This document shows, in pieces, positions 20,571-54,284 of a stretch of DNA of 64,000 bases (position 1 is the stretch's first letter; each line of letters opens with the position of its first letter). The notes below the pieces were generated by a model, which searched no databases, had not been told where the DNA came from, and worked only from the letters and a program-made list of their open reading frames with translations. The translations under genes were made by a program, and so were the position numbers. This DNA comes from Pseudomonas sp. SCB32 (GTDB taxonomy: Bacteria; Pseudomonadota; Gammaproteobacteria; Pseudomonadales; Pseudomonadaceae). The DNA lies in the NCBI RefSeq assembly GCF_009189165.1, contig NZ_CP045118.1, positions 4,650,001 through 4,714,000 of the forward strand, in the 5' to 3' direction.

Positions 20571-21161
20571 ATGAGTTTCGAGATTCGCAAGATCGTCACC
20601 TACAGCGAGCAGACCTTCATCGAAGCCGGCAAGGCCACCGATACCCCGGTGACCATGGTCGGCCTGGCCGTGGTGATCAAGAACCCCTGGGCCGGTCGCG
20701 GCTTCGTCGAAGACCTCAAGCCCGAGATCAAGGCCAACTGCTCCGACCTGGGCGCGCTGATGGTCGAGCGCCTGACCGCCGCCATCGGTGGCGCTGACAA
20801 GATCCAGGCCTACGGCAAGGCCGCCGTGGTCGGCGCCGATGGCGAGATCGAGCACGCCTCCGCCGTCATCCACACCCTGCGTTTCGGCAACCACTACCGC
20901 AAGGCGGTCGATGCCAAGAGCTACCTGAGCTTCACCAACAAGCGCGGCGGCCCGGGCACCTCGATCCAGATCCCGATGATGCACAAGGACGACGAAGGCC
21001 TGCGTTCGCACTACATCACCCTGGAAATGCAGATCGAAGACGCCCCGCGCGCCGATGAAATCGTGGTGGTACTGGGTGCCGCCGACGGTGGCCGCCTGCA
21101 CCCGCGCATTGGCAACCGTTACATCGACCTGGAAGAGCTGGCTGCCGAACAGGCTCAGTGA
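20571..21161 (+). CDS. DUF1185 (PF06684) 'amino acid synthesis' family protein
   Basis: The 196-residue protein matches the DUF1185 family by its length and by the conserved tail RSHYITLEMQIEDAPRADEIVVVLGAADGGRLHPRIGNRY. Structures of this family show a variant of the chorismate-mutase/YjgF-like fold, and a role in amino-acid metabolism was only suggested; the real reaction is unknown. It is the first gene behind operator site 1 and is followed after 23 bases by the hydrolase gene. In this setting I infer a step comparable to the deamination or hydrolysis done by YjgF-fold proteins in ring-opening pathways. Confidence 0.85.
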   Translation: MSFEIRKIVTYSEQTFIEAGKATDTPVTMVGLAVVIKNPWAGRGFVEDLKPEIKANCSDLGALMVERLTAAIGGADKIQAYGKAAVVGADGEIEHASAVIHTLRFGNHYRKAVDAKSYLSFTNKRGGPGTSIQIPMMHKDDEGLRSHYITLEMQIEDAPRADEIVVVLGAADGGRLHPRIGNRYIDLEELAAEQAQ

Positions 21162-21184
21162 TCCACACCGTGCAGGAGCGCTCC

Positions 21185-22018
21185 ATGATTCGGCTCACCG
21201 CTGAACGCACACCGGCCGGCACCAGTTACCTGGCGACCGGCCAGGGCCACCCCGTGGTACTGATCCACGGCGTCGGCCTGAACAAGGAAATGTGGGGAGG
21301 CCAGATCGTCGGCCTGGCGCCGCAATTCCAGGTCATCGCCTACGACATGCTTGGCCATGGCGCGAGTCAGCGTCCGCAGCCGGACTGTGGGCTGGTCGGC
21401 TATGCCGACCAGCTGCGCGAGCTGCTCGACCACCTCGGTGTGTCCCGCGCGACGGTCATCGGCTTCTCCATGGGCGGTCTGGTGGCGCGGGCATTCGCCC
21501 TGCACTGTCCCGAGCGCCTCGAAGGCCTGGTGATCCTCAACAGCGTGTTCAACCGCAGCGCCGAACAGCGCGCCGGCGTGATCGAACGGACCCGCCAGGC
21601 CGCCGAGCACGGCCCGGACGCCAACGCCGAGGCGGCCCTGTCGCGCTGGTTCAGCCGCGAGTACCAGGCCGCCAACCCGGCGCAGATCGCCGCGATCCGC
21701 CAGACGCTTGCGAGCAATGACCCGCAGGGCTATCTGACGACCTACACCCTGTTCGCCACGCAGGACATGTACCGCGTCGACGACCTGGGCAACATCAAGG
21801 TGCCGACCCTGGTCGCCACCGGCGAGCTGGACCCCGGTTCGACGCCGAAGATGGCCACGGAGCTCGCCGAACGCATTCCGGGCGCCAAGGTCAGGGTGCT
21901 CGAAGAACAGCGCCACATGATGCCGGTGGAGTCGCCGCGCCTGGTCAACCAGATGCTGCTCGACTTCCTGCAACAGGCACAGGTTTCCAAGAATCACGTA
22001 CAGGGGAATGTCGCATGA
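21185..22018 (+). CDS. Alpha/beta hydrolase (RutD/PcaD-like)
   Basis: The 277-residue cytoplasmic hydrolase has LIHGVGLNKEMW (oxyanion region), the nucleophile elbow GFSMGG (S95), an acid in GELDPG (D216) and the histidine in EQRHMMP (H244). It looks like RutD, 3-oxoadipate enol-lactonase and related carboxylesterases, so an ester, lactone or carbamate/amide-like intermediate is the likely substrate. The ATG at 21185 has AGGAG at good spacing; its stop overlaps the next start as ATGA. Second gene of the operon. Confidence 0.88.
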   Translation: MIRLTAERTPAGTSYLATGQGHPVVLIHGVGLNKEMWGGQIVGLAPQFQVIAYDMLGHGASQRPQPDCGLVGYADQLRELLDHLGVSRATVIGFSMGGLVARAFALHCPERLEGLVILNSVFNRSAEQRAGVIERTRQAAEHGPDANAEAALSRWFSREYQAANPAQIAAIRQTLASNDPQGYLTTYTLFATQDMYRVDDLGNIKVPTLVATGELDPGSTPKMATELAERIPGAKVRVLEEQRHMMPVESPRLVNQMLLDFLQQAQVSKNHVQGNVA

Positions 22019-23496
22019 CCCTCGCACGCTTCCAGATGTTCATCGATGGCCAGTGGGTCGACGCCATTTCCGGCAAGACCTTCGAGAGCCTCAACCCCGC
22101 CCTGGCACAGCCCTGGGCCGAACTGCCCGATGCCGATGAAGCCGACGTCGAGCGCGCCGTGCAGGCCGCCCAGCGCGCCTTCAACGACCCGGCCTGGCGT
22201 GGCCTCACCGCCACCGCGCGCGGCAAGCTGCTGCGTCGCCTGGGCGACCTGATCGCCGAGAACAAGGAACACCTGGCGCAGCTGGAAAGCCGCGACAACG
22301 GCAAACTGATCCGCGAGACCCGTGGTCAGGTCGGCTACCTGCCGGAGTTCTTCCATTACACCGCCGGTCTTGCGGACAAGCTCGAAGGCGGCACTCTGCC
22401 GCTGGATAAGCCGGACCTGTTCGCCTACACCGTGCACGAGCCGCTAGGCGTGGTCGCTGGGATCATCCCGTGGAACAGCCCGCTGTACCTGACCGCGATC
22501 AAGCTGGCCCCGGCCCTGGCCGCCGGCAACACCATAGTGCTCAAGCCTTCGGAACACGCCTCGGCGACCATCCTCGAACTGGCCCGCCTGGCTACTGAGG
22601 CCGGCTTCCCGGCTGGCGTAGTCAACGTGGTCACCGGCTTCGGCCCGAGCACCGGCGCGGCACTGACCCGCCACCCGCTGGTGCGCAAGATCGCCTTCAC
22701 CGGCGGCGCCGCCACCGCGCGGCACGTGGTGCGCAGCAGCGCGGAGAACTTCGCCAAACTGTCGCTCGAACTGGGCGGCAAGTCGCCCAACATCATCTTC
22801 GCCGACGCCGACCTGGACAGCGCCATCAACGGCGCCGTGGCCGGCATCTACGCCGCCTCAGGGCAGAGCTGCGTCGCCGGTTCGCGCCTGCTGGTGCAGG
22901 ACGAGATCTACGACGAGTTCGTCGCCCGCCTGGTGGAACGCGCCCAACGCATCCGCATCGGCAACCCGCAGGACGAGCAGAGCGAGATGGGCCCCATGGC
23001 CACCGCGCAGCAGCTCGCCGTGGTCGAAGGCCTGGTCGCCGACGCCCTCGCCGAAGGCGCCCGCCTGCGCCTGGGCGGCAAGCGTCCGGACATCGATTCC
23101 GCAGGCTGGTTCTACGAGCCGACCCTGTTCGAGTGCGACAGCAACTCGATGAAGATCATGCAGGAAGAAGTCTTCGGCCCGGTGGCCTCGGTGATTCGTT
23201 TCAAGGACGAAGCCGAAGCGCTCGCCATGGCCAACGACTCGCAGTTCGGCCTTGCCGCCGGCATCTGGACCCGCGACCTGGGTCGCGCCCATCGCATGGC
23301 CCGTGGCGTGCGCAGCGGGATCATCTGGGTCAACACCTACCGCGCGGTGTCCGCCATGGCGCCCATCGGCGGCTTCCACAACAGCGGCTACGGCCGCGAG
23401 AGCGGCATCGATTCGGTGCTGGCCTACACCGAGCTGAAGACGGTGTGGATCAACCTCTCGCAAGCGCCCATGCCCGATCCCTTCGTGATGCGCTAA
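22015..23496 (+). CDS. NAD(P)-dependent aldehyde dehydrogenase
   Basis: The 493-residue enzyme has the general-base glutamate E252 in LELGGKSPN and the nucleophile C286 in SGQSCVAG, with IPWNSPLY, GNTIVLKPSE and the late EVFGPV motif all intact. It oxidises an aldehyde to the acid in the cytoplasm. Its substrate is not fixed by sequence; the neighbours suggest a semialdehyde released after ring or amide cleavage. It overlaps the hydrolase gene by four bases and is 13 bases from the flavin reductase. Confidence 0.9.
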   Translation: MTLARFQMFIDGQWVDAISGKTFESLNPALAQPWAELPDADEADVERAVQAAQRAFNDPAWRGLTATARGKLLRRLGDLIAENKEHLAQLESRDNGKLIRETRGQVGYLPEFFHYTAGLADKLEGGTLPLDKPDLFAYTVHEPLGVVAGIIPWNSPLYLTAIKLAPALAAGNTIVLKPSEHASATILELARLATEAGFPAGVVNVVTGFGPSTGAALTRHPLVRKIAFTGGAATARHVVRSSAENFAKLSLELGGKSPNIIFADADLDSAINGAVAGIYAASGQSCVAGSRLLVQDEIYDEFVARLVERAQRIRIGNPQDEQSEMGPMATAQQLAVVEGLVADALAEGARLRLGGKRPDIDSAGWFYEPTLFECDSNSMKIMQEEVFGPVASVIRFKDEAEALAMANDSQFGLAAGIWTRDLGRAHRMARGVRSGIIWVNTYRAVSAMAPIGGFHNSGYGRESGIDSVLAYTELKTVWINLSQAPMPDPFVMR

Positions 23497-23509
23497 AAGG
23501 AGCGACGAG

Positions 23510-23998
23510 ATGATCGAACCCGGCATCTACAAAGAAGTGATGGGCTCCTTCCCGTCCGGTGTCACCGTGGTCACCACCCTGGACACCAACGGCGAGATCG
23601 TCGGCATCACCGCCAGCGCGTTCAGCGCGCTGTCGATCGAGCCGGCGCTGGTGCTGTTCTGCCCCAACTACGCCTCGGACACCTACCCGATCCTGCGCGA
23701 CAGCAAGCAGTTCGCCATCCACCTGCTGTGTTCCGACCAACAGGCGGAGGCCTACGCCTTCGCCAAAAAGGGCAAGGATAAGGCCAAGGGCATCGAGTGG
23801 CATCTGAGCGAACTGGGCAACCCGCTGCTGAGCAAGGCCACCGCGATCATCGAATGCGAGCTGTGGCGCGAGTACGACGGCGGCGACCACGCGATCATCG
23901 TCGGCGCGGTGAAGAACCTGATCCTGCCGGAGCAGGAGGTCACCCCGATGGTCTATCACCGCGGCAAGCTCGGCGCACTGCCGGTGATAGCCGGATAG
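23510..23998 (+). CDS. Flavin reductase (FMN-binding split-barrel), copy 1
   Basis: The 162-residue protein fits the HpaC/RutF-type flavin reductases that give FMNH2 to a partner monooxygenase. Typical features are MGSFPSGVTVVTT, GITASAFSALS and the C-terminal GAV..L. It is closely similar in nearly every segment to the protein at 34245, showing a duplication within the locus. No monooxygenase is adjacent here; the obvious partner is the luciferase-like protein at 34830. It is followed by a terminator. Confidence 0.9.
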   Translation: MIEPGIYKEVMGSFPSGVTVVTTLDTNGEIVGITASAFSALSIEPALVLFCPNYASDTYPILRDSKQFAIHLLCSDQQAEAYAFAKKGKDKAKGIEWHLSELGNPLLSKATAIIECELWREYDGGDHAIIVGAVKNLILPEQEVTPMVYHRGKLGALPVIAG

Positions 23999-24006
23999 AG
24001 CTTTGC

Positions 24007-24044
24007 AAGGCCGCTCGCCATCACCCTCGGCAGCGGCCTTTTTT
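24007..24044 (+). terminator. Terminator after flavin reductase 1
   Basis: AAGGCCGCT and AGCGGCCTT pair around a 16-base loop and are followed by a T run, ending the first transcription unit of the locus. Confidence 0.8.
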
Positions 24045-24070
24045 ATTCCAGCCTGCGGGCTGATGCTTTT

Positions 24071-24150
24071 CGTAGGAGCGAGCTTGCTCGCGAACGGATT
24101 TCCCGGCGACACCGATGCTGGACGGGTTCGCGAGCAAGCTCGCTCCTACA
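24071..24150. repeat. Family C inverted repeat (80 bp)
   Basis: The arms cgtaggagcgagcttgctcg and its complement lie at 24071-24095 and 24126-24150. Each arm is itself palindromic at gagcttgctc. It separates the terminator from the next gene's Shine-Dalgarno. Confidence 0.85.
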
Positions 24151-24170
24151 GGGATAGAAAGGAGCGACCG

Positions 24171-24560
24171 ATGAGCAACGAGAAATACGAAAAAGGCCTG
24201 GCGATCCGCACCCAGGTGCTGGGCGAGGCCTACGTGAACAAGTCGATCCAGAACGCCGACGACTTCACCCGCCCCCTGCAGGAGCTGGTCACCGAGTACT
24301 GCTGGGGCCACGTCTGGGGCCGGGAGGGCTTATCGCTCAAGGAACGCAGCATGATAAACTTGGCGATGATTTCGGCACTCAACCGCCCTCACGAACTCAA
24401 GCTGCACGTACGCGGGGCCCTGCGCAACGGCCTGTCCCGAGAGCAGATCCGCGAGATCCTCCTGCAGGTCGGCATCTATTGCGGAGTGCCCGCGGCAGTG
24501 GACAGTTTCCGCCTCGCCCGCGAAGCCTTCGCCGAGGCCGACGCCGAGGAACGTGGTTGA
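24171..24560 (+). CDS. Carboxymuconolactone-decarboxylase-family protein (PcaC-like)
   Basis: The 129-residue helical protein carries the PcaC-type core GLSLKERSMINLAMISALNRPHELKLHVRGALRNGLS followed by REILLQVGIYCGVPAA. PcaC decarboxylates gamma-carboxymuconolactone, but the family also holds isomerases, hydrolases and peroxidases. There is no CxxC pair, so it is not AhpD-like. ATG 24171 is preceded by GGAGCG; the frame extends upstream through the repeat but that part is not coding. It sits 82 bases before the regulator. Confidence 0.85.
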   Translation: MSNEKYEKGLAIRTQVLGEAYVNKSIQNADDFTRPLQELVTEYCWGHVWGREGLSLKERSMINLAMISALNRPHELKLHVRGALRNGLSREQIREILLQVGIYCGVPAAVDSFRLAREAFAEADAEERG

Positions 24561-24642
24561 TTGCTGACCCTACTTGACGAGGGAGCCCCTGAGCGTGCTC
24601 CATCGTTCCTCCTACGGACAGCCAGTACACAGAGCGGACCCC

Positions 24643-25395
24643 ATGAAACGCTTGCCACTCGACGATAGCTTCAAGGTCAATCGCAACCCCGTCACACTGC
24701 GCGAAATCGTCCTCGACAAGCTGCGCGGCGCCATCCTGAATTTCCAGCTGCTGCCGGGTGACCGCCTGGTGGAGCGCGACCTGTGCGACCGCCTGGGCGT
24801 GAGCCGCACCTCCGTGCGCGAAGCACTTCGCCACCTGGAGTCCGAGGGCCTGGTGGAGTTCGCCGACGCCAAGGGTCCGCGCGTCGCCATCATCACCCTG
24901 GAAGACGCCGTCGACATCTACGAGCTGCGCTGCGTGCTCGAAGGCCTGATCGTCCAGCTCTTCACCCTCAACGCCAAGGCCCGCGACATCCGCAACCTGG
25001 AGCGCGCGCTGGAGGAAAACCGCAAGGCCCTGGAAGATGGCGAACTGCAACAGGTGATCGAGTCGGTGCAAGGCTTCTACGACGTGCTGCTCGAAGGCTC
25101 GGGCAACCGCACCGCCGCCACCCAGCTGCGCCAGCTGCAGGCGCGCATCAGCTACCTGCGCGCCACCTCCGTATCCCAGGAGAACCGCCGCAGCGCCAGC
25201 AATCAGGAAATGGAACGCATGGTCGAGGCGATCAAGAGCGGCGATCCGGTCGCGGCTCACCAGGCCTCGGTCGATCACGTCCGCGCCGCCGCCAAGGTCG
25301 CCCTGGATTACCTGCGTTCCAAGCAGGATGGCGAAGGCAACGTCCGCGACATCGCCACCCCCATCGCGCTCAAAGAGCCGCGCATCGGACGCTGA
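24643..25395 (+). CDS. GntR/FCD-family transcriptional regulator
   Basis: The 250-residue regulator has an N-terminal winged helix (LCDRLGVSRTSVREALRHLESEGLVEF, about residues 47-73) and a C-terminal all-helical FCD effector domain. It is the only local DNA-binding protein in the locus and is the natural candidate for the five TGGTATACCA-type operators. The start is uncertain: ATG 24643 is used, but GTG 24595 or TTG 24574 behind GAGGGA would add 16-23 residues. It follows the decarboxylase-like gene and precedes the NUDIX gene by four bases. Metabolites of the pathway are the likely inducer. Confidence 0.9.
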   Translation: MKRLPLDDSFKVNRNPVTLREIVLDKLRGAILNFQLLPGDRLVERDLCDRLGVSRTSVREALRHLESEGLVEFADAKGPRVAIITLEDAVDIYELRCVLEGLIVQLFTLNAKARDIRNLERALEENRKALEDGELQQVIESVQGFYDVLLEGSGNRTAATQLRQLQARISYLRATSVSQENRRSASNQEMERMVEAIKSGDPVAAHQASVDHVRAAAKVALDYLRSKQDGEGNVRDIATPIALKEPRIGR

Positions 25396-25399
25396 CGCC

Positions 25400-25963
25400 A
25401 TGACCGCCCCGCGCTTCTGTCCCGCTTGCGGCAGTGGTGGCCTGAGCCGCCAGTGCCCGCCGGGGGATACCCATGAGCGCCTCATCTGCGCGGGCTGCGG
25501 CTACATCCACTACGAGAACCCCAAGGTCATCGCTGGCTGCATCGTCGAGCGCGACGGCAAGTACCTCCTCTGCCAGCGCGCCATCCCGCCGCGCCCCGGC
25601 ACCTGGACCCTGCCGGCCGGCTTCATGGAAAACGGCGAGACCACCGAGCAGGCCGCCCTGCGCGAAGTCTGGGAAGAGACCGGAGTGCGCGCCGACATCG
25701 TTTCGCCCTACTCCATCTTCAGCGTGCCGAAGATCAGCGAGGTCTACATCATCTTCCGCGCCACCGTGATCGAGGAAACCGGCGAGCATGGGCCGGAGTC
25801 CCTGCAGGTGAAATTCTTCGCGCCGGAAGAGATTCCCTGGGACTGCATCTACTACCCGGCGATCCGGCAGATTCTCGAGCGTTACATCGAGGAGCGGCAG
25901 GCGGGGGTGTATGGGATCTACATGGGTAACGATGACACCGGGAAGGTGCATTTCATTCGGTAG
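25400..25963 (+). CDS. Zinc-ribbon NUDIX hydrolase
   Basis: The 187-residue protein starts with a four-cysteine zinc ribbon (CPAC ... CAGC, about residues 7-35) and continues with a NUDIX domain whose box GX5EX7REUXEEXGU is complete (GFMENGETTEQAALREVWEETGV is the region). Such proteins cleave nucleoside-diphosphate-X compounds such as NADH, FAD or ADP-ribose. Placement in a flavin-rich locus makes a flavin or pyridine nucleotide a reasonable but unproven substrate. It starts four bases after the regulator stop and is probably co-translated. Confidence 0.88.
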   Translation: MTAPRFCPACGSGGLSRQCPPGDTHERLICAGCGYIHYENPKVIAGCIVERDGKYLLCQRAIPPRPGTWTLPAGFMENGETTEQAALREVWEETGVRADIVSPYSIFSVPKISEVYIIFRATVIEETGEHGPESLQVKFFAPEEIPWDCIYYPAIRQILERYIEERQAGVYGIYMGNDDTGKVHFIR

Positions 25964-25968
25964 TCTCC

Positions 25969-26017
25969 TGTAGGAGCGCGCCATGCGCGCGATTCGCGGG
26001 CGTGGCCCGCTCCTACG
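25969..26017. repeat. Family B REP-like palindrome
   Basis: A 49-base palindrome (tgtaggagcgcgccatg ... gtggcccgctcctacg) fills the convergent gap between the NUDIX and DUF1330 genes, a typical REP position. Confidence 0.85.
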
Positions 26018-26026
26018 AGGAGCCAG

Positions 26027-26320
26027 TCAGCCCTCGATCCCCTCCACGATGACAATCTCCGCCTTCGCCACGCCCTGCCGGTGCGCGCAGGCCTCCTGGT
26101 ATTCCGCCGAGCGGTAGCAGGCCACCGCCTGCTCGAAGGAATTGAACTCGATCACCACGCTACGCTGAGGAGTAGCCCTGCCCTCCAGCGCTTCGGCGCG
26201 CCCGCCGCGGGCGAGGAATTTGCCGCCGTAGCGGGCGAAGGCCGCCGGGGCACGGCGGGTGTATTCGCTGTACTGCTCGGGATCGGTGATGTCGACGTGG
26301 GCGATCCAGTAAGCCTTCAT
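26027..26320 (-). CDS. DUF1330-family protein
   Basis: The 97-residue protein has the family's shape: MKAYWIAHVDITDPEQYSEY, KFLARGG, and VVIEFNSFEQAVACYRSAEYQ, a dimeric alpha/beta-barrel (ferredoxin-like) fold. No enzymatic activity is assigned to the family. It is divergent from the ribBX gene and shares the gap with operator site 2, so it is probably part of the same regulon. Confidence 0.88.
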   Translation of the reverse strand: MKAYWIAHVDITDPEQYSEYTRRAPAAFARYGGKFLARGGRAEALEGRATPQRSVVIEFNSFEQAVACYRSAEYQEACAHRQGVAKAEIVIVEGIEG

Positions 26321-26373
26321 GCTGACCTCTGCGGTTCTGGTTGCTATGGCGAGTTCTGTTTGGACAATAAAGG

Positions 26374-26388
26374 TATTATGGTATACCA
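26374..26388. promoter_or_regulatory. Operator site 2 (TATTATGGTATACCA)
   Basis: The 15-base motif includes the perfect palindrome TGGTATACCA. It lies 36 bases before ribBX and 53 bases before the divergent DUF1330 start, able to control both. Confidence 0.8.
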
Positions 26389-26424
26389 GATTACCCCTCC
26401 ATTGATCCAGCCGAGTACCGCACC

Positions 26425-27534
26425 ATGCCGTTCGACCGCATCGAAGACATCATCGAAGACTACCGCCAGGGCAAGATGGTGCTCCTGGTCGACGACGAAG
26501 ACCGCGAAAACGAAGGCGACCTGCTGCTCGCCGCCGAGCGCTGCACGCCGGACGCGATCAACTTCATGGCTCGCGAGGCGCGTGGGCTGATCTGCCTGAC
26601 CCTGACCGACGAGCACTGCGACCGCCTGGGCCTGGAGCAGATGGTGCCGGCCAACGGCAGCGTCTATTCCACTGCCTTCACCGTTTCCATCGAGGCCGCC
26701 ACCGGGGTCTCCACCGGCATTTCCGCCGCCGACCGCTCGCACACCGTGCTCACCGCCGTGGCGCCGAATGCGCGCGTCGAAGACCTGGTGCAGCCCGGCC
26801 ACATCTTCCCCCTGCGCGCCCGCGAAGGCGGCGTGCTGACCCGCGCCGGGCATACCGAGGCGGGCTGCGACCTGGCGCGCCTGGCCGGGATGACGCCGGC
26901 CTCGGTCATCGTCGAAGTGATGAACGACGACGGCAGCATGGCCCGGCGACCGGACCTGGAAGTCTTCGCCAAGCGCCACGGCATCCGCATCGGCACCATC
27001 GCCGACCTGATCCACTACCGCCTGAGCAACGAGCACACCGTCGCGCGTATCGGCGAGAGCGAATTGCCGACCGTGCACGGCACCTTCCGCCTGGTCACCT
27101 ACGAGGACCGCATCGAAGGCGGCGTGCACATGGCCATGGTGATGGGCGACATCAAGCGCGAAGACCCGACCCTGGTGCGCGTGCACGTGATCGACCCGCT
27201 GCGCGACCTGGTCGGCGCCGAGTACACCGGGCCGAAGAACTGGACGCTCTGGGCCGCCCTGCAGAAGGTCGCCGAAGTCGGCCACGGCGTGGTGGTGGTA
27301 CTGGCCAACAACGAATCTTCCCAGGCGCTGCTGGCCCGCGTGCCGCAGCTGACCCAGGCGCCACGGCAGTTCACCCGCTCGCAGTCGCGCATCTACTCCG
27401 AGGTCGGCACTGGCGCGCAGATCCTCCAGGACCTCGGCGTCGGCAAGATCCGCCACCTGGGTGCGCCGCTGAAATACGCCGGCCTCACCGGCTACGACCT
27501 GGAAGTGGTGGAAACCCTGCCTTTCGAAGGCTGA
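26425..27534 (+). CDS. ribB: RibBX-type 3,4-dihydroxy-2-butanone-4-phosphate synthase
   Basis: Residues 1 to about 205 form a complete RibB domain ([27 protein letters not shown]), which converts ribulose 5-phosphate to the four-carbon riboflavin precursor. The C-terminal half aligns in position with GTP cyclohydrolase II, but the zinc-cysteine signature (ECLTGD...CDCG) is absent and replaced by [19 protein letters not shown]. Such RibBX hybrids are known to lack GTP cyclohydrolase activity. It stands alone behind operator site 2, away from any rib operon, suggesting that flavin supply is raised when the flavin-dependent pathway is switched on. Confidence 0.9.
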
Positions 27535-27550
27535 TCCGTTCGTCCGCTCG

Positions 27551-27585
27551 CCGTGCTGGCGCTTCGCCAGAAATTTCCAGCACGG
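27551..27585 (+). terminator. Hairpin after ribBX
   Basis: CCGTGCTGG and CCAGCACGG form a 9-bp stem 14 bases after the stop, with no U run directly after it. It may be a weak terminator or stabilising hairpin. Confidence 0.45.
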
Positions 27586-27705
27586 TCAGCCCAGGAAAAC
27601 TTTTCCTTTTTCAATCAACAACCTGAGCAATACGAGGAGAGACGCGGGTTTCACCCAGTCTTCGCTGCCACGATGGCCGGTGTCGCCGAGGACTTGCGGA
27701 AAGTT

Positions 27706-27720
27706 TGGAATACCATAATA
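27706..27720 (-). promoter_or_regulatory. Operator site 3 (TATTATGGTATTCCA, reverse)
   Basis: On the minus strand the sequence reads TATTATGGTATTCCA, one base from the other copies. It lies in the 322-base gap between ribBX and the ABC importer, about 137 bases before the binding-protein gene. Nothing else is recognised in this gap apart from the hairpin above. Confidence 0.75.
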
Positions 27721-27856: not shown

Positions 27857-28882
27857 ATGGTGTTCAAGAAACGTGTGATCGCGGTCCTGGCCGCTGCAGT
27901 CCTGGGCGCAACCGGCACCGCTGCCTTCGGCGCCGACAGCCTCAGTTTCGTCAGCTGGGGTGGCACTACCCAGGATGCACAGAAGCAGGCCTGGGCCGAT
28001 TCCTTCAGCAAATCCACCGGCGTCCAGGTGGTCCAGGACGGCCCCACCGACTACGGCAAGCTCAAGGCCATGGTCGAGAGCGGCAACGTCCAGTGGGACG
28101 TGGTCGACGTCGAAGCCGACTTCGCCCTGCGCGCCGCCGCCGAAGGCCTGCTGGAGCCCCTGGACTTCAACACCATCAAGCGCGACCGCATCGACCCGCG
28201 CTTCGTCTCCGACCACGGCGTCGGCTCGTTCTATTTCTCCTTCGTGCTCGGCTACAACCAGGGCAAGGTCGGCGGCAAGCAGCCACAGGACTGGACCGCC
28301 CTGTTCGACACCGCCACCTATCCGGGCAAGCGCGCGCTATACAAATGGCCAAGCCCCGGCGTGCTGGAACTGGCCCTGCTGGCCGACGGCGTGCCCAAGG
28401 ACAAGCTCTACCCACTGGATCTGGAGCGCGCCTTCAAGAAACTCGACACCATCAAGAAGGACATCGTCTGGTGGGGCGGCGGCGCTCAGTCGCAGCAACT
28501 GCTGGCTTCCGGCGAAGCAACCCTCGGCCAGTTCTGGAACGGCCGCATCTACGCCCTGCAGCAGGACGGCGCGCCGGTGGGCGTGAGCTGGAAGCAGAAC
28601 CTGGTCATGGCTGATTTCCTCGTGGTGCCCAAGGGCTCCAAGAACAAGGACGCGGCGATGAAGTTCCTGGCCAATGCCAGCAGCGCAAAGGGCCAGGCCG
28701 ACTTCGCCAACCTGACCGCCTACGCTCCGGTGAACCTGGACAGCGTCGGCCAGCTCAAGTCTGACCTCGCGCCGAACCTGCCCACCGCCTACGCGCAGGA
28801 GCAGATCACCCTCGACTACGCCTACTGGGCGAAGAACGGCCCGGCGATCGCCGCACGGTGGAACGAATGGCTGGTCAAGTGA
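27857..28882 (+). CDS. ABC importer substrate-binding protein (PotD/SBP family)
   Basis: The 341-residue periplasmic protein has a Sec signal peptide cleaved near AFG-ADS (about residue 25). Conserved features include LSFVSWGGTTQDAQ and the tryptophan-rich KDIVWWGGGAQSQQLLASGE. It belongs to the spermidine/putrescine-type binding-protein family, whose members also carry other cations and aromatic amines, so polyamine is not assured. It opens a four-gene operon behind operator site 3. Confidence 0.88.
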   Translation: MVFKKRVIAVLAAAVLGATGTAAFGADSLSFVSWGGTTQDAQKQAWADSFSKSTGVQVVQDGPTDYGKLKAMVESGNVQWDVVDVEADFALRAAAEGLLEPLDFNTIKRDRIDPRFVSDHGVGSFYFSFVLGYNQGKVGGKQPQDWTALFDTATYPGKRALYKWPSPGVLELALLADGVPKDKLYPLDLERAFKKLDTIKKDIVWWGGGAQSQQLLASGEATLGQFWNGRIYALQQDGAPVGVSWKQNLVMADFLVVPKGSKNKDAAMKFLANASSAKGQADFANLTAYAPVNLDSVGQLKSDLAPNLPTAYAQEQITLDYAYWAKNGPAIAARWNEWLVK

Positions 28883-28884
28883 AA

Positions 28885-29817
28885 ATGGCTGTGATGCAGC
28901 CGGGCCAGGCAGCCGGAGGCGCATCCAGCGCCGCCGGCGCCACCGCCCCGAAGGCAGAACCCATGCGACAGGATGAAGCTCTCACACACCGTTGGCGCGG
29001 TTTCCGCAACCTGCTGCCGGCGTTGCTGTTCCTCGGTCTGTTCTTCCTCGCCCCGCTGATCGGGCTGCTGCTGCGCGGCGTGCTCGAACCCACGCCGGGC
29101 CTGGAGAACTACGCCCAGCTGTTCGCCAACTCGGCGTACACCCGGGTGCTGTTCAACACCTTCGCCGTCGGCGCGCTGGTCACGATTATCAGCCTGCTGC
29201 TGGGCTTCCCGCTGGCCTGGGCGATCACCCTGGTGCCGCGCGGCTGGGGTCGCTGGCTGCTGAACATCGTGCTGCTGTCGATGTGGACCAGCCTGCTGGC
29301 GCGCACCTACTCCTGGCTGGTGCTGCTGCAGGCCTCGGGGGTGATCAACAAGACCCTGATGGCGCTGGGCATCATCGACCAGCCGCTGGAGATGGTGCAC
29401 AACCTCACCGGCGTGGTGATCGGCATGAGCTACATCATGATCCCGTTCATCGTGCTGCCGCTGCAGGCCACCATGGCGGCCATCGACCCGATGGTGCTGC
29501 AGGCCGGCTCGATCTGCGGCGCCAGCCCCTGGACCAATTTCTTCCGGGTGTTCATCCCGCTGTGCCGGCCGGGGCTGTTCTCCGGTGGCCTGATGGTCTT
29601 CGTCATGTCCCTGGGCTACTACGTCACCCCGGCGCTGCTGGGCGGGGCGCAGAACATGATGCTGCCGGAGTTCATCGTCCAGCAGGTGCAATCCTTCCTC
29701 AACTGGGGCCTGGCCAGCGCCGCCGCCGCGTTGCTGATCGTCATCACCCTGGTGCTGTTCTACCTCTACCTGAAGCTGCAACCGGAATCCCCGGTGGCTT
29801 CCAGTAGCGCGAGGTAA
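28885..29817 (+). CDS. ABC importer permease, PotB type
   Basis: The 310-residue inner-membrane protein has six predicted membrane segments beginning at about residue 43 (LLPALLFLGLFFLAPLIGLLL) and the cytoplasmic EAA-type loop around QAGSICGASPWTNFFRVFIPL. The start is uncertain: ATG 28885 lies just after the binding-protein stop, GTG 28858 and ATG 28867 overlap it, and ATG 28963 would remove an unusual Ala/Gly-rich leader. It pairs with the next permease. Confidence 0.85.
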   Translation: MAVMQPGQAAGGASSAAGATAPKAEPMRQDEALTHRWRGFRNLLPALLFLGLFFLAPLIGLLLRGVLEPTPGLENYAQLFANSAYTRVLFNTFAVGALVTIISLLLGFPLAWAITLVPRGWGRWLLNIVLLSMWTSLLARTYSWLVLLQASGVINKTLMALGIIDQPLEMVHNLTGVVIGMSYIMIPFIVLPLQATMAAIDPMVLQAGSICGASPWTNFFRVFIPLCRPGLFSGGLMVFVMSLGYYVTPALLGGAQNMMLPEFIVQQVQSFLNWGLASAAAALLIVITLVLFYLYLKLQPESPVASSSAR

Positions 29818-29820
29818 GCC

Positions 29821-30630
29821 ATGCTGCTCTCACCCAATGCCATGAGCCGGAGCATGCGCGTCGGCCTCTACCTCACGACCGGGACCATCGCGGCCTTCCT
29901 GCTGCTGCCCATTGTGTTCATCGTGCTGCTGTCCTTCGGCTCCTCGCAGTGGCTGGTGTTCCCGCCGCCGGGCTGGACGCTGAAGTGGTACACGCAGTTC
30001 TTCTCCAACCCCGAGTGGATGAGCGCAGCGTTCACCAGCCTGAAGGTGGCGATCCTCACCACCCTCTGCTCGGTGGCCCTGGGCCTGCCCACCGCGTTTG
30101 CCCTGGTGCGCGGCAAGTTCCCCGGCCGCGAGATGCTCTACGGGCTGTTCACCCTGCCGATGATCGTGCCGCTGGTGATCATCGCGGTGGCGGTGTACGC
30201 GCTGTTCCTCAAGCTCGGCTACACCGGCACGCTGTTCTCCTTCGTGGTCAGCCACGTCATCGTCGCGCTGCCCTTCACCATCATCTCGATCATCAACTCG
30301 CTGAAGCTGTTCGATCAGTCCATCGAGGACGCCGCGGTGATCTGCGGTGCCTCGCGCCTGCAGGCGGTGATGAAGGTGACCTTCCCGGCGATCCGCCCCG
30401 GCATGGTGGCCGGCGCGCTGTTCGCCTTCCTGGTCTCCTGGGATGAAGTGGTGCTGAGCGTGATGATGGCCAGCCCGACCCTGCAGACCCTGCCCGTGAA
30501 AATGTGGACCACCCTGCGCCAGGACCTGACCCCGGTGATCGCCGTCGCTTCGACGCTGCTGATCGGCCTGTCCGTCCTTGTGATGGTGATCGCCGCCGCC
30601 CTGCGCCGGCGCAACGAAATCAGCGCCTGA
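29821..30630 (+). CDS. ABC importer permease, PotC type
   Basis: The 269-residue second permease has six membrane segments and the loop EDAAVICGASRLQAVMKVTFPAI typical of the family. It starts three bases after the first permease gene ends. Together the two form the membrane channel of the importer. Confidence 0.88.
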   Translation: MLLSPNAMSRSMRVGLYLTTGTIAAFLLLPIVFIVLLSFGSSQWLVFPPPGWTLKWYTQFFSNPEWMSAAFTSLKVAILTTLCSVALGLPTAFALVRGKFPGREMLYGLFTLPMIVPLVIIAVAVYALFLKLGYTGTLFSFVVSHVIVALPFTIISIINSLKLFDQSIEDAAVICGASRLQAVMKVTFPAIRPGMVAGALFAFLVSWDEVVLSVMMASPTLQTLPVKMWTTLRQDLTPVIAVASTLLIGLSVLVMVIAAALRRRNEISA

Positions 30631-30647
30631 GCGCCGAGGTAAATGCC

Positions 30648-31790
30648 ATGAGTGCCGTGATCCAAGAATCCCGCGAGCAGAAGACCCTGGTCAGCCTGCG
30701 CAACCTGAACAAGTTCTATGGCGACTTCACCGCCGTGGACAACATCTCCCTCGACATCCAGGACGGCGAGTTCCTCACCTTCCTGGGCTCCAGCGGCTCG
30801 GGCAAGAGCACCACGCTGTCCATGCTGGCCGGCTTCGAGACACCCAGCAGCGGCGAGATCCTGGTCGAAGGCCAATCCCTGGTGAACGTGCCGCCGCACA
30901 AGCGCGACATCGGCATGGTGTTCCAGCGCTACTCGCTGTTCCCGCACCTGTCGGTGCGCGACAACATCGGCTTCCCGCTGGACATCCGCAAGCAGAAGGG
31001 CGCCGAGCGCGACCGTCGCGTCGACGCCATGCTCAAGCTGGTGCAGCTGGACAAGTTCGCCCACCGTCGCCCGGCGCAGCTCTCCGGTGGCCAGCAGCAG
31101 CGCGTCGCCATCGCCCGCGCGCTGGTCTATGAGCCGCGCATCCTGCTGATGGACGAGCCCCTCGGCGCGCTGGACAAGAAACTGCGCGAGGACCTGCAGG
31201 ACGAACTGCGCCACCTGCACCGCCGCCTGGGCATCACCATCGTCTACGTGACCCACGACCAGGAAGAAGCCATGCGCCTGTCCCAGCGCATCGCCATCTT
31301 CAGCCACGGCAAGATCGTCGGCCTGGGCAGCGGCTATGACCTCTACCAGAACCCGCCGAATGCCTTCGTCGCATCCTTCCTCGGCAACTCCAACTTCCTT
31401 CGCGCCCGCGCCCACGGCAACGCCGCGGCGGAGTTCGAAGGCCGCGTACTGTCGATCAGACCGACCGCAAACCTGTGCGAAGGCCAGGACATCCTGCTGA
31501 TGGTGCGCCCGGAGAAGGCCCAGGTGCTGAGCCCGGCCCAGGCGTCTGCCACTCCCCTGGCGGCTGGCTGGAACGAGATCCCGGCGCGCGTGGCCGAAAC
31601 GGTGTTCCTCGGCGAGAGCCTGACCTGCAGCGTGGTGACCGCCAGCGGCGCGAACCTGACGCTCAAGGAATTGTCCGGCAACACCCAGCCACTGGCTCCC
31701 GGCAGCGAAGTGCGTGTGCGCTGGGCGGCTGCCGATGCGTGCGTGTATGACCAATGGAACGAGAGCGACCTGACCAAGGGCGCGCACTGA
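30648..31790 (+). CDS. ABC importer ATP-binding protein, PotA type
   Basis: The 380-residue ATPase has Walker A (GSSGSGKST), signature LSGGQQQR, Walker B with ILLMDEPLGALD, the switch histidine in VTHDQEEA and a C-terminal TOBE domain (about 290-375). ATG 30648 has GAGGT upstream; the frame is open earlier inside the permease gene but out of conserved sequence. Last gene of the importer operon, followed by a strong terminator. Confidence 0.93.
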   Translation: MSAVIQESREQKTLVSLRNLNKFYGDFTAVDNISLDIQDGEFLTFLGSSGSGKSTTLSMLAGFETPSSGEILVEGQSLVNVPPHKRDIGMVFQRYSLFPHLSVRDNIGFPLDIRKQKGAERDRRVDAMLKLVQLDKFAHRRPAQLSGGQQQRVAIARALVYEPRILLMDEPLGALDKKLREDLQDELRHLHRRLGITIVYVTHDQEEAMRLSQRIAIFSHGKIVGLGSGYDLYQNPPNAFVASFLGNSNFLRARAHGNAAAEFEGRVLSIRPTANLCEGQDILLMVRPEKAQVLSPAQASATPLAAGWNEIPARVAETVFLGESLTCSVVTASGANLTLKELSGNTQPLAPGSEVRVRWAAADACVYDQWNESDLTKGAH

Positions 31791-31817
31791 TCCACGACTG
31801 AAGAGTTGTCCCTTGAA

Positions 31818-31853
31818 CCCCCGGTTTGCTTCTTGGAGCCGGGGGATTTTTTT
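31818..31853 (+). terminator. Terminator of the ABC importer operon
   Basis: CCCCCGG and CCGGGGG enclose a 14-base loop and are followed by seven T. Confidence 0.9.
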
Positions 31854-31933
31854 GGCTGGTGTTTTTTAGCTTGCTGCCGTGCTCACACGTCGAGCCTGTA
31901 GGAGCGGACTCCTTCCGCGATGCTTTTGCTCTT

Positions 31934-31968
31934 CGTAGGGCACATAACGCCTCTGGCGTTATCCGCCG
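31934..31968. repeat. Family D single hairpin
   Basis: One arm of family D, cgtagggcacataacgcc...ggcgttatccgccg, without the facing partner. It opens a gene-free stretch (31854-32454) filled with repeats. Confidence 0.7.
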
Positions 31969-31974
31969 TTCGGG

Positions 31975-32200
31975 TATTGGTGTTTCTGCGCTGCTTCGGC
32001 GTGCTCGGATGTTTCTTGTTTCGCCCCCTCGGGCACGTCACTTCTTCCAAACGTCGGAAGGCCGCCCCCAAAGAAGTAACCAAGAAGGCTCGTCCCGACA
32101 TCCGGGTCTTCGCTTCGCTCAGACTCCCCTCCTTCCGGTATCGCTCCGAGGGTCGGCGTCCATGCCGCTCGCCCCTCTGCGCAATACCTCCACTCGGCCT
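31975..32200 (+). repeat. Long dispersed repeat, copy 2
   Basis: This is the opposite-orientation counterpart of 19590-19900. Matching blocks are ctgcgctgcttcggcgtg, gtttcgccccctcgggc, ccaaacgtcgga and catccgggtc. The copies have diverged enough that no frame is shared, arguing against a protein. Confidence 0.6.
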
Positions 32201-32268
32201 CCTGACCGGACTCTGCGCGCGCCTGATGCATGGGCAGTACCTGAGTGGCTCGTGTGTGAACGCTCTTC

Positions 32269-32420
32269 GTAGGATGGCGTGGAGCGAAGCGATACCCATC
32301 AGGGCGTACCTGTCTGCGACTCTGGTTGCCCTTCGTAGGAGCGAGCTTGCTCGCGAACCGCCCCTCCATCGCTGTTTCGGCGTTGCCTGCAACGCTGATC
32401 GCGGGCATGGCCCGCTCCTA
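32269..32420. repeat. Tandem single arms of families A, C and B
   Basis: Family A arm at 32269-32300 (gtaggatggcgtggagcgaag), family C arm at 32334-32358 (cgtaggagcgagcttgctcg) and family B half at 32397-32420 (atcgcgggcatggcccgctc) follow one another. Each lacks its partner. Confidence 0.65.
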
Positions 32421-32454
32421 CAAGAGATGCATCGCCCTCGCCCATCCCACAGGC

Positions 32455-32485
32455 AAAAAAAAGCCCCACCAAATCCCGGCAGGGC
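32455..32485 (-). terminator. Terminator of the NCS1 permease gene
   Basis: On the minus strand GCCCTGCC and GGTGGGGC pair (two G-U) around GGGATTT and are followed by eight T, 28 bases after the stop. Confidence 0.8.
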
Positions 32486-32512
32486 AGAGAGTGTAACGAC
32501 GAAAACGAAAGC

Positions 32513-33910
32513 TTATTCCGCGATCCCCAGCCCCACCGGCTGGCCCATCTCGCGCGCCTGGCCGCGAGTCGCCAGGCAGTAGTAAAGCGGGCAGGTCACC
32601 AGCAGGCCGAACAGCCACGACAGGTCCACCCCATCGATGTAATTGGCATATGGCCCGACAAACAGCGCCGTATTGGCAAACGGCAACTGCACGACGATGC
32701 CCAGGAAGTACGCAATGATCGCGTGCGGATTGAAGCGCCCGTACACCCCACCGTCACGACTGAAGATCGACTGGATGTCATAGCGGCCACGCTTTATCAG
32801 GTAGAAGTCGACCAGGTTGATCGAGGCCCAGGGCACCAGAACCACCAGCATCGCCAGGATCAGGCCGATGAAGTGGGAGATGAAGTCGGCCGAGGCGCCC
32901 AGCGCCATCACGCAGCTGCCCGCCAGCACCGCCGAGGACAGGACCACGCGCACGCGCACGCTGGGTGTCCAGCTGCCGGCGAAGGTCTGGATCGAGGTGA
33001 CGATGGAGAGCACCGCGCCGTACAGGTTCAGCGCGTTATGGCTAACGATGTTGAGCAGGAACAGCAGCATCAGCACTGGGCCGAACATCCCGGTGGCCTG
33101 CTTCACCGCGAGCATCGCGTCGGTGCCTTCCGGGGTCGCCAGTACGGCGACGGCGCCGAAGCTGAACGACAGGCTGGTACCCGCCACCGCGCCGGCGAAA
33201 GTCGCCAGGAACGGTTTACCGATACCCACGCTGGCCGGCAGGTAACGCGAGTAGTCCGAGGTGTAGGGGGCGAAGCTGATCTGCCAGATGATGCCCAGGC
33301 ACAAGGTGGCCAGGAAGCCCGACAGGTTGAAAGCGCCGCGGGAGAAGAAGTCCGCCGGCAGCTCGCCGCCGAACATGATGACGAAGCCCGCCAGCAGCGC
33401 GCCGCCCATCACCCAGGTGCCGATGCGGTTGAGGGTGTGGATGAAGCGGTAGCCGATCACGCCGATGGCGGTGGCGCCCAGCGCGCCGAGAATGATCGCC
33501 ACCGGCGTCGGGGTCGCCGGCACCAGGCCCTGGATCGACTTGCCCGCCAGAACGATGTTGGAAATGAAGAAGCCGACGTAGATCAGTGTGGTGAAGAACA
33601 CGATCAGCAAGGCGCCGTAGCGGCCGAACTGGCCCCGGCTCTGGACCATCTGCGGGATGCCCATCTGCGGCCCCTGCGCCGATGCCAGGGCGAGGAACAC
33701 GCCACCGAACAGATGGCCGAGAACGATGGCGATCAGCCCCCAGAGCAGGTCGAGGTGGAATACCTGGACCGCCATCGCGCCGGTGACCACCGGCAATGGT
33801 GCGATGTTGGTGCTGAACCACAGCGTGAAGAGATCGCGGGACCGCCCATGGCGCTCGGCCGGCGGCACGTAATCGACGGTATGGTTCTCGATCAGCGGAG
33901 TCTCGGACAT
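32513..33910 (-). CDS. NCS1-family permease (cytosine/purine/allantoin type)
   Basis: The 465-residue inner-membrane protein has about twelve membrane segments. The family start is clear: LFTLWFSTNIAPLPVVTGAMAV and LGHLFGGVFLALASAQGPQMGIPQMVQSRGQFG. NCS1 proteins import nucleobases and related heterocycles (cytosine, uracil, allantoin, hydantoin, nicotinamide riboside, thiamine) with Na+ or H+. It is divergent from flavin reductase 2, with operator sites 4 and 5 between them, so it is probably induced with the pathway. It is the strongest hint that the substrate is an N-heterocycle. Confidence 0.92.
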   Translation of the reverse strand: MSETPLIENHTVDYVPPAERHGRSRDLFTLWFSTNIAPLPVVTGAMAVQVFHLDLLWGLIAIVLGHLFGGVFLALASAQGPQMGIPQMVQSRGQFGRYGALLIVFFTTLIYVGFFISNIVLAGKSIQGLVPATPTPVAIILGALGATAIGVIGYRFIHTLNRIGTWVMGGALLAGFVIMFGGELPADFFSRGAFNLSGFLATLCLGIIWQISFAPYTSDYSRYLPASVGIGKPFLATFAGAVAGTSLSFSFGAVAVLATPEGTDAMLAVKQATGMFGPVLMLLFLLNIVSHNALNLYGAVLSIVTSIQTFAGSWTPSVRVRVVLSSAVLAGSCVMALGASADFISHFIGLILAMLVVLVPWASINLVDFYLIKRGRYDIQSIFSRDGGVYGRFNPHAIIAYFLGIVVQLPFANTALFVGPYANYIDGVDLSWLFGLLVTCPLYYCLATRGQAREMGQPVGLGIAE

Positions 33911-33997
33911 CGTTGTTTGCCTTGCTTATTGTCTTTGTAGGTCTGGTCATCCGGCGCCTTGAAACGGGCAGAATCGGTGCTTCGGCGACAGCGGCAA

Positions 33998-34012
33998 TAT
34001 TATGGTATTCCA
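33998..34012 (+). promoter_or_regulatory. Operator site 4 (TATTATGGTATTCCA)
   Basis: The motif is identical to site 3. It lies 88 bases from the NCS1 permease start and on its side of the 334-base divergent gap. Confidence 0.8.
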
Positions 34013-34178
34013 AATACCAGGCAAGGGGTTTCTGCCTAACCGTTGGTCGAATGGCCGTCGACCGGGTACCCGCCGGCAACCTTCAGCCACGCTGGAAGCC
34101 CCGTAGTCAGCAGCCTCCAGCCGATCATCGAGAAACCTCCATCCATCCATCGGGAAAAGAAAGGGCTTGCTTTCGAAG

Positions 34179-34193
34179 TATTACGGTATACCA
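34179..34193 (+). promoter_or_regulatory. Operator site 5 (TATTACGGTATACCA)
   Basis: This copy differs by one base (C for T) from sites 1 and 2. It lies 52 bases before the flavin reductase 2 start, the same spacing as site 1 to its gene. Between sites 4 and 5 nothing else is recognised. Confidence 0.8.
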
Positions 34194-34244
34194 TCAGACG
34201 AAACGGTCACCCCCGATGACCGGATCACAAGACAGGTACTCGCA

Positions 34245-34730
34245 ATGATCGACAACGCTGCCTACAAACAAGTCATGGGTTCCTTCCCGTCCGGCGTCAC
34301 TGTCATCACCACCATGGACGACGACGGCCAGGTGGTCGGTCTCACCGCGAGTGCCTTCAGCTCCCTGTCCATGGACCCGGCGCTGGTACTGTTCTGCCCC
34401 AACTACAGCTCCGACTCCTACCCGGTGCTGATCCGCCGCAAGCACTTCGCCATCCACCTGCTCTCCGCCGACCAGCGCGGCGAGGCCTATGCCTTCGCCA
34501 GCAAGGGCAAGGACAAGGCCCAGGGCATCAGCTGGACCCTGAGCGAACGCGGCAACCCGTTGCTGGACAACGCCACCGCCATCATCGAGTGCGAGCTGTG
34601 GCGTGAATACGAAGGTGGCGACCACGCCATCCTGGTCGGCGCTGTGAAGAACCTTATCGTCCCCGAGCAGGAGGTCATCCCGATGATCTACTGCCGCGGC
34701 AAGATGGGTGCCTTGCAGGCCTTCGCCTGA
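34245..34730 (+). CDS. Flavin reductase (FMN-binding split-barrel), copy 2
   Basis: The 161-residue protein is a close paralogue of the one at 23510 (shared KQVMGSFPSGVTV/KEVMGSFPSGVTV, PALVLFCPNY, AIIECELWREY). It should reduce FMN or FAD with NAD(P)H and hand it to the luciferase-like monooxygenase encoded 99 bases downstream. ATG 34245 starts the conserved domain; the frame is open to 34167 but that would read across the operator. Confidence 0.9.
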   Translation: MIDNAAYKQVMGSFPSGVTVITTMDDDGQVVGLTASAFSSLSMDPALVLFCPNYSSDSYPVLIRRKHFAIHLLSADQRGEAYAFASKGKDKAQGISWTLSERGNPLLDNATAIIECELWREYEGGDHAILVGAVKNLIVPEQEVIPMIYCRGKMGALQAFA

Positions 34731-34829
34731 AACCTTGCGTGAGACCCGCCGGCGGGCAGGTTCCCGGCCAGGCGGCCATTATTGAAATATCCGGCCCGAC
34801 GGCCGCAGTAATCGCCCCGAGGTAACGCC

Positions 34830-35873
34830 ATGAAATTCTCCTTGTTCGTACACATGGAGCGCTATGACGAGCAAACCAGCCAGCGCCAGCTCTTCGAGGA
34901 CCTGACCGAGCTGACGCTGATGGCCGAGGCCGGTGGCTTCAGCACCGTGTGGATCGGTGAACACCATGCGATGGAGTACACCATCTCGCCCAGCCCGATG
35001 CCGCTGCTGGCCTACCTGGCCGCTCGCACCGAGACCATCCGCCTGGGTGCCGGCACCATCATCGCGCCGTTCTGGAACCCCATCCGCGTCGCCGGTGAAT
35101 GCGCGCTGCTCGACGTGATCAGCAACGGCCGCATGGAAGTGGGCCTGGCGCGCGGCGCCTACCAGTACGAGTTCGACCGCATGGCCAATGGCATGCCCGC
35201 CTCCGAAGGCGGCAAGTACCTGCGCGAGATGGTCCCGGTGGTGCAGGCGCTGTGGCAGGGCGATGTCGCCCACGAAGGCGAAATCTGGAAGTTCCCCACC
35301 TCCACCTCCTCGCCGCGCCCGATCCAGAAGCCGACCCCGCCGATGTGGATCGCCGCCCGCGATCCGGACTCGCACAACTTCGCTGTGGCCAACGGCTGCA
35401 ACGTGATGGTCACCCCGCTGATGAAGGGCGACGAGGAAGTCCTCGACCTGAGGAACAAGTTCGAAGCCGCCCTGGCCAACAACCCCGGCATCCCGCGTCC
35501 GCAACTGATGGTGCTGCGCCACACCCACGTGCACAACGCGGACGATCCGGAAGGCTGGAAGGTCGGCGCGCAGGCCATCTCGCGCTTCTACCGCACCTTC
35601 GACGCCTGGTTCGGCAACAAGCAGGTACCGGTCAACGGCATCCTGCCGCCCAGCCCCGAGGAGAAGTTCAAGGACCGTCCGGAGTTCGAACTGGAGAACA
35701 TCCGCAAGAACACCATGATCGGCACCCCGGAAGAAATCATCGCGCGCATCCGTTACTACCAGGAACTGGGCGTCGACGAATTCAGCTTCTGGGCGGACAA
35801 CAGCCTGTCCCACGCCGAGAAGAAGAAGTCGCTGGAGCTGTTCATCCAACATGTGATTCCGGCGTTCCGCTGA
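34830..35873 (+). CDS. LLM-class flavin-dependent monooxygenase
   Basis: The 347-residue protein is a luciferase-like TIM-barrel oxygenase: KFSLFVHMERYDE, AEAGGFSTVWIGEHHAMEYTISPSP, RLGAGTIIAPFWNPIRVAGE, SNGRMEVGLARGAYQYEFDRM. Relatives use reduced FMN and O2 to oxidise alkanals, sulfonates or, in RutA, to open the uracil ring. It has GAGGT before its ATG, follows flavin reductase 2 and ends at a strong terminator. I take it as the oxygenase that begins the pathway; the substrate is not known. Confidence 0.92.
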   Translation: MKFSLFVHMERYDEQTSQRQLFEDLTELTLMAEAGGFSTVWIGEHHAMEYTISPSPMPLLAYLAARTETIRLGAGTIIAPFWNPIRVAGECALLDVISNGRMEVGLARGAYQYEFDRMANGMPASEGGKYLREMVPVVQALWQGDVAHEGEIWKFPTSTSSPRPIQKPTPPMWIAARDPDSHNFAVANGCNVMVTPLMKGDEEVLDLRNKFEAALANNPGIPRPQLMVLRHTHVHNADDPEGWKVGAQAISRFYRTFDAWFGNKQVPVNGILPPSPEEKFKDRPEFELENIRKNTMIGTPEEIIARIRYYQELGVDEFSFWADNSLSHAEKKKSLELFIQHVIPAFR

Positions 35874-42110: not shown

Positions 42111-42115
42111 CCGGT

Positions 42116-54283: not shown

Positions 54284-54284
54284 G

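Follow-up and report, generated by a model that had tools for sequence, protein, structure and literature searches.

A probable trigonelline catabolic cluster in Pseudomonas sp. SCB32 and a free-standing NUDIX counterpart of the TgnA C-terminal domain

Which compound do the genes at positions 20571-35873 of a 64,000-nucleotide stretch of Pseudomonas sp. SCB32 break down? The stretch, here called the window, spans positions 4,650,001 to 4,714,000 of contig NZ_CP045118.1 (assembly GCF_009189165.1), and the genome is a single contig of 6.3 Mb. A first-pass annotation, made from the sequence alone, saw in this locus an undescribed oxidative pathway for an N-heterocycle, built on the plan of the Rut uracil pathway, and left its substrate open. 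All the gene families it named are present at or near the coordinates it gave, as Pfam searches confirm; its inventory was correct for these genes but passed over a GntR regulator and a RibB/RibA-type gene. We propose that the locus is in all probability a trigonelline (N-methylnicotinate) catabolic cluster, the Pseudomonas version of a pathway known from Acinetobacter, a reading that we hold with good confidence on sequence comparison.

The DUF1185 gene gave the first lead: a paper on coumarin degradation (PMC7913881) calls its own DUF1185 protein homologous to TgnF of the trigonelline pathway in Acinetobacter baylyi, and earlier trigonelline work is touched on there and in PMC8269262. In a plasmid record of Acinetobacter sp. 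PK01, the names tgnA, tgnB and tgnC are attached to genes in a cluster with the order DUF1330, GntR, DUF1185, hydrolase, tgnA, tgnB, tgnC, cytosine permease, a hypothetical protein with a weak porin match, succinate-semialdehyde dehydrogenase (SSADH) and CMD. For A. baylyi we used the species locus L022, which we take to be the tgn trigonelline degradation cluster of Perchat et al. 2018. Homologs of the monooxygenase, flavin reductase, TgnC, hydrolase, DUF1185, GntR, DUF1330, NCS1 and CMD proteins are common to the window and these Acinetobacter clusters. The gene set once thought undescribed is thus that of a named cluster, the gene-by-gene match to A. baylyi supplies a candidate for the substrate, and tgn clusters also contain counterparts of the NUDIX and CMD genes, which had been read as extras on a Rut plan. 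The nearest named homologs of the window monooxygenase, among the matches listed, are from Pseudomonas and Metapseudomonas. The pathway itself is already known, and some close relatives are so named by automatic JGI annotation, with 4 of 120 listed homologs, 73-79% identical, called "flavin-dependent trigonelline monooxygenase".

The main enzymes are orthologous to their A. baylyi counterparts. Five A. baylyi proteins (TgnC, TgnD, CMD, NCS1 and TgnE) were searched against the whole SCB32 genome, and for four of them the best match lies in the window: 594 bits against 365 for the next match with TgnC (best of 19 listed at E <= 1e-90), 132 against 77 with TgnD (best of 6 listed), 213 against 134 with CMD (best of 4) and 556 against 344 with NCS1 (best of 9, the next having 38% identity). 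TgnE, the SSADH, finds four homologs of 61-63% elsewhere in the genome and the window aldehyde dehydrogenase at only 37%; the enzyme would thus be supplied from outside the window. DUF1185 and the monooxygenase are each present in a single copy at the thresholds used, the window DUF1185 gene being the sole PF06684 match in its genome at E <= 0.001. In the TgnD-like hydrolase, the positions of the nucleophile serine, the aspartate and the histidine align with those of A. baylyi; in this family such residues make up the catalytic triad.

Linkage of these genes is conserved beyond SCB32. A monooxygenase match at E <= 1e-60 was found in 8 of 293 genomes drawn from the order, and in 136 of 398 genomes from the family Pseudomonadaceae, where at most 5 candidates were scored per genome. 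Setting aside one genome with only a clade I gene (G294), one with only a clade III gene (G589) and one with a fragment (G524), 133 genomes carry a monooxygenase of the window type, clade II in the tree described below. We then chose by hand 32 clade II genes from six genera of other Pseudomonadaceae and took up to 40 kb around each. The first-pass annotation had staked its proposal on the co-occurrence of monooxygenase, DUF1185 and hydrolase genes in other genomes, and the three stand together in 24/32 stretches, accompanied across the set by aldehyde dehydrogenase (25), GntR (25), NCS1 (25), NUDIX (24), RibB-type (23), DUF1330 (23), CMD (20) and ABC binding protein (20) genes. In seven of the eight remaining cases DUF1185 is found further along that contig, at a distance of 29-48 kb; the eighth (G668) has an aldehyde dehydrogenase match at its edge, and the two genes beyond have probably been cut off. 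A TgnE homolog (63-72% to A. baylyi) is found inside the cluster in 10 of the 32 relatives.

From orthology and gene context, the substrate would be trigonelline, and each reaction step can be proposed in turn. The reaction chemistry that we apply to the TgnB, TgnC and TgnD roles reportedly comes from Perchat et al. 2018. The NCS1 permease, the ABC importer or both would take up trigonelline. With reduced flavin mononucleotide from a flavin reductase, the luciferase-like monooxygenase would open the pyridinium ring in the role of TgnB, and the aldehyde dehydrogenase, in that of TgnC, would oxidize the ring-opened hydroxybutyrolactone, a substrate named as such for PK01. The alpha/beta hydrolase, as TgnD, may then cleave the product, releasing methylamine, formate and CO2 and leaving succinate semialdehyde; we favor the last because a TgnE homolog belongs to the cluster in those 10 relatives. 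A dehydrogenase encoded elsewhere in the genome would complete the oxidation. The type of chemistry foreseen by the first-pass annotation, in which a two-component flavin monooxygenase opens an N-heterocycle and a dehydrogenase and a hydrolase follow, with importers, is retained here as the most likely one.

The organization of the flavin-related genes sets the window apart and also accounts for a part of TgnA. The two window reductases match the N-terminal domain of TgnA at 40% and 37%. The C-terminal domain of TgnA, on which Pfam is silent, adopts a Nudix fold but no longer has its catalytic box (L022:9066-9998 and PDB 3rh7). A profile of 11 full-length NUDIX rows, the window protein and 10 relatives, matched TgnA C-termini at 99.74%, against 0.17% in a control comparison of the TgnA C-terminus with flavin reductases (rows under 220 amino acids), and the Nudix box is present in 11/11 full-length NUDIX rows versus 0/92 TgnA-type C-termini. 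The window NUDIX protein is a separate counterpart of the TgnA C-terminal domain, with the box intact. A TgnA-type fusion of the Nudix-fold domain to a reductase was not found in the window; we do not take the fusion as defining tgn, because a clade II cluster of Arthrobacter fuses its reductase to another domain. The RibB-type gene, one of three paralogs in the genome and the one near the monooxygenase in the 23 relatives counted above, encodes a protein whose last cysteine is residue 148 of 369. Because of this its RibA half lacks the cysteines with which GTP cyclohydrolase II binds zinc, and a RibB with such a cysteine-free half may be called RibBX-like. RibB and NUDIX plausibly adjust the flavin supply; this and the roles of the CMD, DUF1185 and DUF1330 proteins are ones that we infer. 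A riboflavin or lumichrome pathway was considered and dropped, since the RibB-type gene accompanies a nearly complete tgn set.

Does the window monooxygenase have the same substrate as TgnB? In a tree of 78 monooxygenases, whose sole outgroup is 27.5% identical and which carries a long-branch warning, clade I holds A. baylyi and rhizobia (23 rows, support 100/98), the window falls in clade II with actinobacteria and other Pseudomonas (45 rows, 95/99), and a clade III of 7 rows is supported at 100/100; G197 and G131, two rows that come from other families, fall outside the three. Mean identities are 50.5% between I and II, 41.5% between I and III and 43.2% between II and III. We counted alignment columns as fixed when they reached at least 90% in clades I and II and 80% in III: of these, 22 are the same in I and II, 5 in I and III and 4 in II and III, and 3 differ in all, although the excess shared by I and II could also be due to common ancestry. 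We fetched 80 clade I loci and searched 47 of the genomes with clade I; none of these has clade II, as no match to the window protein exceeds 56% there and the minimum within clade II is 69%. Similarly, the 398 Pseudomonadaceae include 133 genomes with clade II, one clade I gene and none with both, whereas three of the four with a clade III gene also carry clade II. This pattern of occurrence fits a single job shared by clades I and II, and another for III. Growth data are in keeping with trigonelline: PMC10890144 reports it as sole carbon source for 53/53 isolates of the P. syringae group (33/33, 2/2 and 18/18), and clade I turned up in 1 of the 398 Pseudomonadaceae genomes.

Several observations weigh on the other side, and most of them would favor a cluster with unchanged chemistry whose substrate is some other N-methylpyridinium carboxylate or close analog, such as N-methylisonicotinate or 1-methylnicotinamide after deamidation, with clade II differing in its substrate pocket. 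With identities of only 50% to TgnB and 32% for the hydrolase, the substrate could have changed. Between clades I and II there are fixed differences at positions 50 (F/Y), 115 (Y/F) and 112 (S/Q), which a luciferase alignment places near the flavin and substrate site, next to luciferase active-site positions. The tree joins I with III instead of II, weakly (90/64, with the outgroup and warning given above), and does not fix the branching order of the three clades; we have set our certainty about trigonelline slightly lower because it does not join I and II. The family also duplicates: two to four copies occur in 5 of the 47 clade I genomes (with a 44% match, within the clade III range, in two of the five), and clades II and III coexist as noted. 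The mutual exclusion of I and II could in part be mere taxonomy. As for the pathway as a whole, the window is without the TgnE that the A. baylyi cluster contains. The syringae-group growth is circumstantial, since a clade II protein is found by name only in P. viridiflava, and PMC10890144, by its own account, differs from other authors in its trigonelline result for the actinidiae strains. Set against a changed substrate are both transporters and the accessory genes, which match those of tgn clusters, besides the exclusive occurrence and the fixed columns, and we consider it unlikely. The wider version, in which clade II differs from TgnB in function and takes another N-methylpyridinium compound, with yet another for clade III, seems to us just as doubtful; if true, the tgn module would be a general, substrate-tunable opener of N-alkylated pyridinium rings, with which flavin-supply genes (RibB, NUDIX, riboflavin kinase) travel.

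Clade III clusters (L152-L153, L174-L175, L176-L177, L205, L206, L207 and L208) have a monooxygenase about 41-44% identical to that of the window, together with a TgnA-type reductase, an aldehyde dehydrogenase, a hydrolase and usually DUF1185, and in some a CMD or NIPSNAP protein. Three Pseudomonas genomes hold such a cluster alongside one of the window type. The substrate of clade III may be another N-methylpyridinium.

Two further readings depart from trigonelline more widely. The Rut pyrimidine pathway pairs a flavin monooxygenase with a flavin reductase, and this use, common to Rut and the window, gives the Rut-like reading of an undescribed oxidative pathway for some heterocycle its general analogy of roles. 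However, the RutF model reaches only 58 and 65 bits (cut-off 254.75) and RutD 89 (cut-off 238.5), both well short of equivalog level; the "RutD-like" label for the hydrolase is weak, as PcaD scores higher at 177 (cut-off 255.85). No isochorismatase-type match was found among 30 open reading frames scanned, nearly all from 16650 to 39728, and with it no candidate RutB. Given also that a named tgn cluster has the same gene set, we regard a Rut-like pathway as very unlikely. A pathway for pyridine of the kind in Arthrobacter sp. 68b is more improbable still. Plasmid p2MP of that strain has a luciferase-like monooxygenase, a flavin reductase, a riboflavin kinase and an SSADH, genes that we take to be those assigned as pyr, with the luciferase-like protein presumably PyrA, and a DUF1330 gene, of a family also present in the window, stands at the edge of the stretch compared. 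However, the window monooxygenase is only 27.5% identical to the p2MP luciferase-like protein, an amidohydrolase takes the place of the alpha/beta hydrolase, and the 17 annotated features of the 17-kb p2MP stretch include no DUF1185, NCS1 or CMD.

The features of the locus are collected in the table below. On the plus strand the order runs from DUF1185 through hydrolase, aldehyde dehydrogenase, flavin reductase, CMD, GntR, NUDIX, RibB-type and four ABC genes to the second flavin reductase and the monooxygenase, with DUF1330 and the NCS1 permease on the minus strand. For two genes an internal ATG is given as the likely start, the listed open reading frames beginning at 24003 (CMD) and 25328 (NUDIX).

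Table. Features of the putative trigonelline cluster, with positions in the window and the evidence for each
Feature	Position	Strand	Evidence
DUF1185 / PF06684 "amino acid synthesis" (AA_synth) protein, TgnF-like	20571..21161	+	Pfam 239 bits; 55% to A. baylyi locus gene
Alpha/beta hydrolase, TgnD-like	21158..22018	+	Pfam; 32% to A. baylyi gene
Aldehyde dehydrogenase, TgnC-like	22015..23496	+	Pfam; 54-55% to A. baylyi TgnC
Flavin reductase 1, matching TgnA N-terminal domain	23510..23998	+	Pfam; 37% over 130 amino acids to A. baylyi TgnA
CMD-family protein	24171..24560	+	Pfam; 80% over 115 amino acids to A. baylyi
GntR/FCD regulator	24574..25395	+	Pfam; 37% to A. baylyi regulator
Free-standing NUDIX hydrolase with Zn-ribbon	25400..25963	+	Pfam; Nudix box intact; profile match to TgnA C-termini
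DUF1330 protein	26027..26320	-	PF07045 133 bits; 54% to A. baylyi
RibB with cysteine-free RibA-like half	26425..27534	+	Pfam
ABC importer, solute-binding protein	27857..28882	+	Pfam; 59% to S. meliloti pSymA cluster protein
ABC importer, permease	28858..29817	+	Pfam; 58% to pSymA
ABC importer, permease	29821..30630	+	Pfam; 62% to pSymA
ABC importer, ATPase	30504..31790 (listed open reading frame; true start probably further in)	+	Pfam; 50% to pSymA
NCS1 permease	32513..33910	-	PF02133; 56% to A. baylyi cluster permease
Flavin reductase 2, adjoining monooxygenase	34167..34730	+	Pfam; 40% over 130 amino acids to A. baylyi TgnA
Luciferase-like monooxygenase, TgnB-like, clade II	34830..35873	+	Pfam; 50% over 346 amino acids to A. 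baylyi TgnB; tree

Downstream of the locus, an MFS gene (36148-37785) and a GMC oxidoreductase gene (38064-39728) were considered as cluster members and set aside, being conserved in only 4 of the 32 relatives. A scan of the window found no Rfam family at gathering score inside the locus; its sole Rfam match is sRNA-Xcc1 at 42037-42124 (83 bits versus a gathering score of 53). Elsewhere the window encodes an O-GlcNAc transferase-like TPR protein that carries a glycosyltransferase family 41 domain (46068-48101, 284 bits) and, at 53255-57558, parts of a second ABC importer and an aldehyde dehydrogenase (551 bits), which lie outside this cluster.

With our analysis the supposed new pathway falls away, and the range of a known one widens to include actinobacteria and about a third of the sampled Pseudomonadaceae species (133/398). 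The C-terminal domain of TgnA is accounted for as a boxless Nudix fold, to which a separate box-bearing protein corresponds in the window lineage, and clade III, which occurs beside clade II, is where a new N-methylpyridinium pathway might be sought. Among the papers listed, the literature search yielded no description of this cluster in Pseudomonas; as far as that search goes, the clade structure, the separate NUDIX protein with its intact box and the linked flavin gene are new, and part of this may be in Perchat et al. 2018.

The locus can be set beside three known clusters. A. baylyi has a two-domain TgnA whereas the window has separate proteins, two short reductases and one NUDIX; the window has in addition a RibB-type gene and an ABC importer, and its monooxygenase belongs to a separate clade from TgnB. 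The cluster on plasmid pDCT5 of Arthrobacter dokdonellae is like the window in its clade II monooxygenase (75%) and its GntR, DUF1185, hydrolase, aldehyde dehydrogenase and SSADH genes. Its NUDIX gene, however, is too dissimilar to match that of the window, its NCS1 permease is only 26% identical, a SnoaL-like domain is joined to its flavin reductase (L010:8490-9428), an arrangement unlike both TgnA and the window reductases, and it carries a riboflavin kinase and a tautomerase. Finally, a cluster beside nif genes on pSymA of Sinorhizobium meliloti probably represents the trigonelline region classically described by Boivin 1990 and Goldmann 1991. Its 25-kb stretch gave no NCS1, CMD or DUF1330 match and includes a NIPSNAP protein and an SSADH, but it shares with the window the GntR, DUF1185, hydrolase, TgnA-type reductase, monooxygenase and aldehyde dehydrogenase genes and an ABC importer, to which that of the window is 50-62% identical.

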